A stretch of 64,000 nucleotides of DNA, taken from the NCBI GenBank assembly GCA_002717515.1, contig PBEC01000018.1, forward strand, positions 134,630 to 198,629, given 5' to 3'. A model generated the notes under the pieces. The model searched no databases. It was not told the origin of the DNA and saw only the letters and a list, made by a program, of their open reading frames with translations. The DNA comes from Flavobacteriales bacterium (lineage in GTDB: Bacteria > Bacteroidota > Bacteroidia > Flavobacteriales_C > GCA-002722245). Made by a program: the position numbers and the translations under genes. Of the stretch, positions 12,414 through 51,705 are shown piece by piece. How positions within the stretch are numbered: position 1 is the first letter of the stretch; each line of letters begins with the position of its first letter.

Positions 12414-13136
12414 TCAAAACAATTTTTCATTTTTTTCAATTTTTAAGTTGGCGAGTTTGTATTCTATATATTTAATTGTTTTTCCTTTTTCTAACCACAT
12501 GTTCTCGTAGAATGTTTTAAGCGATAATTCTTTTGCCAGTTGAGAATTTGGATTTTGAGGTATATATTTTTTATAAATATCATCGCAATCAAATAGAATT
12601 TCAAGATTTTTTTCAATGATGATTTCTTTCGTGAATTCATAAAAGAAATCACTGTCGGATTTGAGTCTCATCTTTCCATCCGGTTTTAAAAATTCTTGGT
12701 ATCGGGATAAAAACAACTTGTTTGTTAAACGTTTTCTGCGTCTGTTTTTATTGATTTGAGGATCAGGAAAAGTAATCCATATTTCATCTACTTCGTCTTT
12801 AGCAAAACAATTGGCGATGAAGTCAATTCTGGTTCTCAAGAAACCAACATTATTTAATTTTTTTTTAATCGCTTTTGTAGCGCCTTTCCATATTCGGTTC
12901 CCCTTGATGTCAACTCCAATAAAATTTCTGTTGGGATACATTTCTGCCATTCCAACTGTGTATTCTCCACCACCACAGGCTAACTCTACAGTAATTGGAT
13001 TGTTATTTTTAAAAAAAGTTTTGTTCCATTGTCCTTTTAGGTCAATACCTGTTTTCATTACCTCCTCCATGGTGGGCTCTACGCAATTTTCATACTCTTT
13101 AATCATTGCGAATTTTTCGAGTTTTCCTTTGCTCAT
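12414..13136 (-). CDS. trmB: tRNA (guanine-N7-)-methyltransferase
   Basis: VELACGGGEYTVGMAEMYPNRNFIGVDIKGNRIWKGA, WITFPDPQINKNRRRKRLTNKLFLSRY. Track start 13178 overlaps the upstream gene; MSKGKLEKF at 13136 preferred. Confidence 0.94.
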   Translation of the reverse strand: MSKGKLEKFAMIKEYENCVEPTMEEVMKTGIDLKGQWNKTFFKNNNPITVELACGGGEYTVGMAEMYPNRNFIGVDIKGNRIWKGATKAIKKKLNNVGFLRTRIDFIANCFAKDEVDEIWITFPDPQINKNRRRKRLTNKLFLSRYQEFLKPDGKMRLKSDSDFFYEFTKEIIIEKNLEILFDCDDIYKKYIPQNPNSQLAKELSLKTFYENMWLEKGKTIKYIEYKLANLKIEKNEKLF

Positions 13137-13137
13137 T

Positions 13138-13827
13138 TTAATAATTTCTGTTTGTTGGTCGAACAATAATTTGTTCAAAGTTAGCTCCTAAGGAGGATTT
13201 AATTATCATTTCAGTAGCATCTACTATATCTTTAGTTTGAACAAAGTCGTTTTTTGGAGCTTCAATTCCATCCCATGAAGATGTGTTAATCGATCCGGGA
13301 ATTATTTCAGTTACTTTAACTCCGAAATCTTTAAGATCATCGGTAAGGACTTTGGTGTAACCTTGTAGAGCAAATTTTGAAATTGTATATGCAGAGACGT
13401 CTTTTCTGGGTTCTTCAGTTACAATTGAACCGACGTTAATTATTGTTCCATATTTTTGAGATTTAAATACGTTTAGAAGGGATTGAGTAATTGAAAAAGC
13501 TGCTTTAAAATTAATCGACAACATTTTATTTACTTGTTCAAGATTGGTTTCTTCAAGGCTTCCCATTTCAAAAGCTCCAACATTATTAATGAGCACATCT
13601 ACTTGATTAAAATCAGCTTGTAATTCGCGAATAAGTGCCTGGACTGCTTCTGAATTAGTAAAATCACAAGTATAGGTTATTACACTACAGTGTTTTAAAT
13701 CCTCTGCGATATTTTTTAACCGATCTTGATTTGAAGCGATAATACCAATAGTACCGCCATATTTACTTGCAAATTTTGCAAATTCTTTACCTAAGCCTTT
13801 ACTAGCGCCTGTTATTATAAAATTCAT
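13138..13827 (-). CDS. SDR family oxidoreductase
   Basis: TGASKGLGKEFA, NNVGAFEMGSLEE, YTISKFALQGYTKVL (YxxxK). Confidence 0.92.
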   Translation of the reverse strand: MNFIITGASKGLGKEFAKFASKYGGTIGIIASNQDRLKNIAEDLKHCSVITYTCDFTNSEAVQALIRELQADFNQVDVLINNVGAFEMGSLEETNLEQVNKMLSINFKAAFSITQSLLNVFKSQKYGTIINVGSIVTEEPRKDVSAYTISKFALQGYTKVLTDDLKDFGVKVTEIIPGSINTSSWDGIEAPKNDFVQTKDIVDATEMIIKSSLGANFEQIIVRPTNRNY

Positions 13828-50161: not shown

Positions 50162-50845
50162 TTAAATTAAATCTATGAGGCCCAATTCACCGGTTGATTT
50201 GGGTATTTTATAATTGTGTATGCCAAATTTTTTCAGTTCCTTTTCGGTAGTAGGTCCAATTGAAACGATACGTTGCCCTTCCTTTGCCTCCAACTTAGAA
50301 AAGTAAGCTCTCACATTGGATGGGCTTGTAAATATTAAAACATCAGCTTTTGGGTCTTGAAAGTTGTTTTTTTCAATTGTATTGTAAACAATTAAATCAT
50401 ATGTCTTCTCCTGATTAGGAAAATATTTTTGAATTGTTCTTTTGGAGATGTTGGAAACTGGAAAAAGACAAGTACCATCCTTGACTTTTTTTACAAATGC
50501 TTTACCAACATCATTTATGTTGACAGAGTCACCAACAAAATCAATTTTGGGAACATACTTCATAAGTTCTCTGTGGGTTCCTCTTCCCACACAGGCTATT
50601 TTTCTATTGTTAAGATGAATTTTTTGCTTGAAAAAGAAGCGTACGGAGTTCTTACTTGTAAAAAAAATCCAGTTTGTTATCGGAACATTTTCAACTTGGT
50701 TAATTTCAAAACGAATTAAAGATTCCGCAAGTATCGTGTACTCTTTAGGGATACACTTTGACTTAAAAAAGCTATTTTTATCAAGGTTTTTCGAAACAAA
50801 AACCCTTTTGGAAATTAGTTTTTTTTTAAGGCGTGAACAATTGAG
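50162..50845 (-). CDS. hemD: Uroporphyrinogen-III synthase; open frame lacks a canonical start in its N-terminal part
   Basis: Track starts at an internal GTG 50590. The frame is open up to 50845: ...LKKKLISKRVFVSKNLDKNSFFKSKCIPKEYTILAESLIRFEINQVENVPITNWIFFTSKNSVRFFFKQKIHLNNRKIACVGRGTHRELM; IFFTSKNSVRFFF and VLIFTSPSNVRAYF are HemD signatures. Confidence 0.85.
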   Translation of the reverse strand, partial: LNCSRLKKKLISKRVFVSKNLDKNSFFKSKCIPKEYTILAESLIRFEINQVENVPITNWIFFTSKNSVRFFFKQKIHLNNRKIACVGRGTHRELMKYVPKIDFVGDSVNINDVGKAFVKKVKDGTCLFPVSNISKRTIQKYFPNQEKTYDLIVYNTIEKNNFQDPKADVLIFTSPSNVRAYFSKLEAKEGQRIVSIGPTTEKELKKFGIHNYKIPKSTGELGLIDLI

Positions 50846-51705
50846 TCAGCTGCATCGTATTCAGAGTCAAAACTGGATTGAACTCTTTTTAAAGAGCCAT
50901 CTTCTTGTCCCAAAGTAGCCCAGACCTCATATTTTCCACTGATCTTTTCTGCGTAAACTCCAAGGGGTAGTTGACACCCTCCATCTAATTTGTTCAAAAC
51001 GCTTCTTTCAATATTAACAATAGATTTAACATCTGGGTTATTTATTTTGGAAACGTATTTTTTAGTTTCTTCATCTTCAGATCGAGTTTGCAAGCCAAGC
51101 ACTCCTTGCGCTGGTGCTGGAACAAAATCTTGTGGTTTTAAAATTTCTACTTGAAATTCTGATAGATCAATATTTAATCTTGAAACTCCTGCATTTGCTA
51201 AAACAATGGCATCATAATCTTCTTCACGAAGTTTATCAATCCTTGTTGGAACATTTCCTCGAAGATCTTTTATTTTTAAATCGGAACGAAAGGCACTTAG
51301 TATGGATTTTCTTCTGGCTGATGAAGTTCCAACTATAGCGTTTTCTTTTAACGCCAATTGTTTTGTTGGGTCATAGGCGTTCTTTTTTATTAAAAGCATG
51401 TCTGATGGGTTCTCTCTATCTGACACAGCAACGATTTCTAAACCATCGGGCTGGTTTGTTTCAAGGTCTTTGTGAGAGTGAACAGCAAGATCAATAGATT
51501 TATCTAATAAGGCGTCTTCAATTTCTTTAGTGAAAAAACCTTTACCCTCTAACTTGTCAAAGCTAAGATGCTGGATTTTATCTCCTTGAGTTTTTATAAT
51601 GTGTATTTCAACTTCACAACCTAACTTTTGCAACTTGCTTTTTACAAAGTTTGCTTGCCATAATGCTAAATCACTTCCTCTGGTTCCTATTTTAATTAAT
51701 GCCAT
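50815..51705 (-). CDS. hemC: Hydroxymethylbilane synthase (porphobilinogen deaminase)
   Basis: KIGTRGSDLALWQANFVKSKL, IVGTSSARRKSIL, DLRGNVPTRIDKL, LDGGCQLPLGVYA. Confidence 0.96.
   Translation of the reverse strand: MALIKIGTRGSDLALWQANFVKSKLQKLGCEVEIHIIKTQGDKIQHLSFDKLEGKGFFTKEIEDALLDKSIDLAVHSHKDLETNQPDGLEIVAVSDRENPSDMLLIKKNAYDPTKQLALKENAIVGTSSARRKSILSAFRSDLKIKDLRGNVPTRIDKLREEDYDAIVLANAGVSRLNIDLSEFQVEILKPQDFVPAPAQGVLGLQTRSEDEETKKYVSKINNPDVKSIVNIERSVLNKLDGGCQLPLGVYAEKISGKYEVWATLGQEDGSLKRVQSSFDSEYDAADSIVHALKKN

Follow-up and report, generated by a model that had tools for sequence, protein, structure and literature searches.

The dnaX gene of Thermus thermophilus contains a run of nine A within its coding sequence (A9), on which RNA polymerase slips, and gives rise to a short and a long product with no need for a ribosomal stimulator (PMC1088944, PMC5009743). 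There the long form is encoded in frame and slippage leads to the short one. In the tssM1 gene of Citrobacter rodentium an A11 tract lies right before a premature stop codon, and the sequence beyond it is in another frame. Mass spectrometry demonstrated slippage on the RNA, which yields products of two lengths, both of them needed (PMC4256274). The endosymbionts Blochmannia and Buchnera have tolerated frameshifts in poly(A) tracts over time through slippage, which rescues full-length products of single genes in their eroding genomes (PMC3017870). The dnaX gene of E. coli, which is expressed through a -1 ribosomal frameshift, combines the heptamer A_AAA_AAG with an SD-like element and a hairpin. 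To our knowledge, most known cases of recoding concern IS elements, dnaX, prfB, and eroding endosymbionts, and conserved recoding in housekeeping metabolic genes of ordinary-sized bacterial genomes is rare.

The window, which is the whole stretch of 64,000 nucleotides analysed here, carries hemC and hemD joined through an A9 tract (Table 1). As in Thermus dnaX, the tract is a coding A9 and a short and a long product would be made with no stimulator, but here the short HemC is in frame and slippage would lead to the long form, and the genes encode a metabolic enzyme pair rather than a replication subunit. The tract right before the stop codon, the out-of-frame downstream part and the two expected length variants recall tssM1, and SD elements or structures were found in neither (PMC4256274); tssM1 is one secretion gene, whereas the present case involves two whole enzymes, is conserved across a genus and across families, and would depend on slippage suggested by comparison. 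Unlike those of Blochmannia and Buchnera, the genomes concerned measure 1.5-6.9 Mb; runs of nine are scarcer in the window than expected, and its tract lies between two enzymes, the first of which ends at a stop codon. The joint shares with E. coli dnaX the heptamer type, its register and a single tRNA-Lys, but it has a longer A-run, no conserved stimulator, and AAC at the heptamer end in three loci. The direct relatives, as placed by the gene tree, are the in-frame HemC-HemD fusions of the Bacteroidia, which have the same domain order; they form one open reading frame of ~520-550 codons without an A-tract, whereas hemD of the window lies in the -1 frame. The papers searched held no mention of recoding or fusion of hemC and hemD. 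The pattern is best described as presumed recoding of two heme-biosynthesis genes, conserved and probably convergent: a known type of expression in an unexpected place.

Table 1. Features of the hemC-hemD joint and the second HEM4 gene (window positions, unless a locus is named)
Feature	Position	Strand	Details
hemC, hydroxymethylbilane synthase	50815..51705	minus	296 aa, ATG start, TAA stop; ORF and TIGR00212
A9 slippery tract (candidate)	50819..50827	minus	codon phase TTA AAA AAA AAC
hemC stop codon TAA	50815..50817	minus	immediately 3' of the A9 tract
hemD, uroporphyrinogen-III synthase	50162..50818	minus	-1 frame; 218 codons past the tract and TAA stop; start-less
TGA closing the hemD frame upstream	50846..50848	minus	read in the sequence
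GTG, first canonical start codon in the hemD frame	50588..50590	minus	codon 77 of 219
ATT overlapping the hemC stop, candidate non-canonical start	50813..50815	minus	read in the sequence
Second HEM4 gene of the window's genome	L197:2069-2815 (G000:C18 about 76568-77314)		adjoins a DUF4271-like membrane protein gene (name by eye)

Read on the minus strand, hemC ends with the codons TTA (50829-50827), AAA (50826-50824), AAA (50823-50821), AAC (50820-50818) and TAA (50817-50815), which agrees with the ending and the A9 tract (50827-50819) described in the initial annotation. In the zero frame the tract holds both A_AAA_AAA and A_AAA_AAC. The complete hemD which that annotation had placed in the -1 frame was borne out: this frame runs uninterrupted from 50845 to a stop at 50162 (a stop-to-stop span of 227 codons), its product passes PF02602, and the peptide right after the tract is KLISKRVFVSK.... 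The two boundaries it had given, the upstream TGA and a first start only at GTG 50590, are likewise present in the sequence. No ATG, GTG or TTG occurs in the hemD frame of the window before codon 77, and since the TGA closes that frame a hemD start further up inside hemC is impossible.

HemC scored 301.5 bits against TIGR00212 (curated cut-off 164), identifying it as hydroxymethylbilane synthase, and HemD scored 102 bits against PF02602 (HEM4; cut-off 27.5). An AlphaFold model of HemD, built from 24 relatives, reached a pLDDT of 94; its top matches in the PDB are all uroporphyrinogen-III synthases, the best being H. pylori U3S 3p9z (E 3.7e-10). In the predicted structure the first strand comprises residues 4-8, beginning three residues past the tract. 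Initiation at GTG 50590 would remove strands 1-4 and one helix of the predicted secondary structure; this internal start was set aside because of the lost N-terminal strands and because the site is not common to the relatives.

All five species of the window's genus, that is the window and four genus-mates whose hemC is 79-95% identical to it, possess exactly A9, the -1 offset and a start-less hemD, and in all genus-mates the hemC stop (TAA or TAG) directly follows AAC or AAG. In locus L004 the hemD frame has its first canonical start past the tract at codon 184 of 219, and upstream it stays open as far as a GTG within hemC, which the other four species do not have. hemD is intact in all five, with no in-frame stops against 13-29 in each other frame, and its dN/dS is 0.11-0.16 where computable, that of hemC being of the same order; between the deeper pairs of the genus silent sites are saturated (pS 0.7-0.8). 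The first 76 codons of hemD, which lie ahead of any possible start, are constrained as well (pS 0.67-0.84 versus pN 0.23-0.30 in deep pairs). Purifying selection acts on hemD. As AAA makes up ~73-85% of Lys codons here, conservation of synonymous sites in the tract was not taken as proof. Judged from these genomes, the out-of-frame state of hemC and hemD is conserved among relatives. The initial annotation had ranked a lost A in a true fusion gene and a slip as equal options and had proposed a search for A9 in relatives; that all four genus-mates keep A9 and a start-less hemD speaks for the slip and against the lost A.

Wider comparison revealed the same genes in three arrangements. The sister genus (g2) encodes one in-frame HemC-HemD protein of 517-526 residues in five genomes, the kind of fusion that the initial annotation had suggested looking for, and in-frame fusions account for most of the class-scan matches listed. 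The class scan also contained two further cases of start-less hemD, and a scan of the family to which these two belong, f5, yielded seven genomes from six genera with A9 or A10, the -1 offset and a start-less hemD. Five of these have A9 and two have A10, where the extra A belongs to the preceding codon (CAA, GAA) and the offset is therefore the same. The tract and offset persist in f5 though the distance to the HemD core varies: in G327 the tract lies directly before the core, and in G412 and G306 it stands some codons farther upstream. When all classified loci were counted, with duplicates removed, at least nine A were found at the joint of 12 of the 12 readable start-less loci, whereas such a run was absent from all 63 separate, start-bearing hemD genes and from all 72 fusions; one further start-less locus (L128) is masked by N and stands outside the 12. 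Each of these 63 genes has an ATG, GTG or TTG close to the joint, and in many relatives with separate genes the hemD start overlaps the hemC stop. Separate genes with an ordinary hemD start, which had been named as the observation that would speak against slippage, occurred only in more distant taxa without the A-tract. A phylum scan added zero start-less cases among its best 30 loci, many of which are too distant, and none of 30 other A9 loci checked in the window's genome has the same split-gene layout. The pattern is thus, on the genomes compared, kept in twelve species of some marine Bacteroidota and is no accident of one genome.

In a tree of HemC plus HemD, the window's genus is sister to the fused g2 (100/100) and both nest in a mainly fused clade (98/99), the f5 cases lying apart. 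On this topology the direction from fused to A-linked is well supported for the window's genus. A single clade for all twelve recoded loci was rejected (AU p=0.0002), from which it follows that the A-linked state probably arose at least twice; a single clade for the seven f5 loci was unrejected (p=0.126). Support for the deeper branches of this tree is weak; two or more origins are its most economical interpretation, and a single ancient recoded state followed by many losses is less likely.

We consider it likely that the A-tract supports programmed slippage, probably by RNA polymerase, giving HemC together with a HemC-HemD fusion. hemC and hemD would then constitute one recoded gene. On unmodified A9 mRNA most translation would stop right after the tract and yield HemC alone. 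In some transcripts RNA polymerase would slip on the A9, adding one A or omitting two, which would place hemD in frame, and such transcripts would give a fusion resembling that directly encoded in the sister genus. In the window's genus an in-frame fusion would have undergone a one-base frame change in its A-rich linker, and the resulting A-linked state may have been retained because the two products, or the proportion between them, bring an advantage or are at any rate adequate. Recoding itself, the polymerase as slipping agent, the exact mutational path and the benefit are what we infer from these comparisons. The joint presents the features expected of programmed transcriptional slippage, namely a run of at least nine A, a selected and otherwise untranslatable downstream frame, and a conserved tract and offset. 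The fused sister genus, the conserved A9 and the seven f5 genomes all lend weight to the slippage or -1 slip first proposed in the initial annotation.

The same fusion would result if the ribosome shifted -1 on A_AAA_AAG, A_AAA_AAC or A_AAA_AAA before the stop codon, as happens in E. coli dnaX and numerous IS elements; this is the leading alternative, though we regard it as unlikely. The zero-frame heptamer is in the right register at all 12 loci (A_AAA_AAG or A_AAA_AAC), the reading being uniformly NNA or NAA followed by AAA AAA AAG/C. This register may, however, merely mirror the coding of Leu(TTA)-Lys-Lys-Lys at the end of HemC, and as proof of a ribosomal shift it was set aside on that ground. 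A single tRNA-Lys (UUU) was found in the window's genome, as is the case in E. coli, where the literature ties it to the shift-prone AAG. The hemC stop, too, lies within a few codons of the tract at all recoded loci except G306, where it comes 10 codons on. Stimulators are a different matter. At locus L164 the tract is closely preceded by AAGGAGG and followed by a stable hairpin, and L003 and L006 have local hairpins, but the SD-like element is confined to L164 and there is no shared 3' stem; fold z-scores at the recoded loci range from +1.0 to -4.2 and reveal no conserved 3' structure. A stem-loop stimulator 3' of the tract was rejected, because L004-L006 either lack the hairpin of L001 and L003 (GGGTTTTT...AAAAACC) or have only a weak form of it. 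Three loci, namely the window, L003 and L165, have AAC as the last codon of the heptamer, an ending that bacterial ribosomes tolerate poorly (PMC4066793). Finally, A_AAA_AAG needs six A, and A6+G would suffice for a ribosomal shift, yet all recoded loci have tracts of 9-10 A, the length at which transcriptional slippage turns efficient (PMC1088944, PMC5009743). This uniform length, the lack of a conserved stimulator, AAC in three loci, and the A9 and A11 precedents together favour the polymerase, which we infer to be the considerably more probable slipping machine; both may act. In L164 (G411), the sole locus with dnaX-like stimulators, AAGGAGGAGC stands directly before the A10 and a stable hairpin after it, and ribosomal frameshifting may be at work there.

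Separate translation of hemD, from an ATT overlapping the hemC stop or through stop-coupled reinitiation, is very unlikely. Overlapping starts are common among the relatives with separate genes, and the ATT at 50815-50813 does overlap the TAA in the window and in L003. Among the genus, this codon is present only in these two 95% identical relatives and is absent from L004-L006, which disfavours the ATT start that the initial annotation had offered as an alternative, and no near-cognate codon at the start position is common to the 12 loci. A separate start would also leave the association between A9-A10 and start loss unexplained, given that the 63 separate hemD genes have usual starts and no run of at least nine A.

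Every genome in the window's family has a second stand-alone HEM4 gene, as has each of the seven recoded f5 genomes, and the recoded HemD need not be the only uroporphyrinogen-III synthase. Its presence in all recoded genomes could mean that hemD is a decaying remnant and that the second protein does the work. This is a highly improbable account: the second gene is also present in the sister genus alongside an intact fusion, and such coexistence argues against a recent replacement, while hemD itself is intact, with a dN/dS of 0.11-0.16 and a frame open in all five species. That the true tract is A10 in a plain fusion gene is scarcely credible, even though sequencing errors are frequent in A-runs and the named records were assembled from metagenomes (G327, which consists of one contig, may derive from long reads). 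The identical offset recurs in 12 genomes of seven genera, where repeated loss of one A in sequencing, the lost-A alternative of the initial annotation, is very unlikely; two or more different projects produced the g1 records (PBJD01000025.1, CAJJCC010000018.1), and fused relatives lack a run of at least nine A at the joint.

Without the action of HemD, hydroxymethylbilane, the product of HemC, cyclizes spontaneously to uroporphyrinogen I, which is of no use, and for this reason the proportion of HemC that is free rather than joined to HemD could be important. Tentatively, and short of an even chance, we suggest that selection has kept this core biosynthetic enzyme pair half-fused, convergently, in two or more bacterial lineages, the A9-A10 tract setting the ratio of free HemC to fusion and acting as a reversible bridge between the fused and the separate states. 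The occurrence of hemC and hemD as in-frame fusions, separate genes and A-linked pairs within one class makes testable both a path from fused to split genes and the reason for making HemC as well as HemC-HemD. Annotators are likely to miss hemD in these genomes or to label it truncated.

Four f5 loci of genus g133 (L170, L172, L174 and L184) have a separate hemD, the hemC stop TAG being followed by CCGC(T/C)ATG. The joint is near-identical across the four and may represent a replaced or re-split hemCD locus.

Compared with dinucleotide shuffles, A/T runs of exactly 8 are not scarce in the window (32 seen versus 23.3 expected), whereas runs of exactly 9 number 4 versus 10.5 expected and runs of 10 or more 0 versus about 7.6. 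Taken together, 4 runs of at least nine were seen versus about 18 in shuffles; so sharp a cut-off at 9 is the expectation if the polymerase slips from 9 on. One of the window's genes, trmB-like by eye (12414-13187, minus strand), has an in-frame A9 at 12858-12866 that is translated straight through as KKK and, as far as its reading frame indicates, is a natural control for an A9 without recoding.
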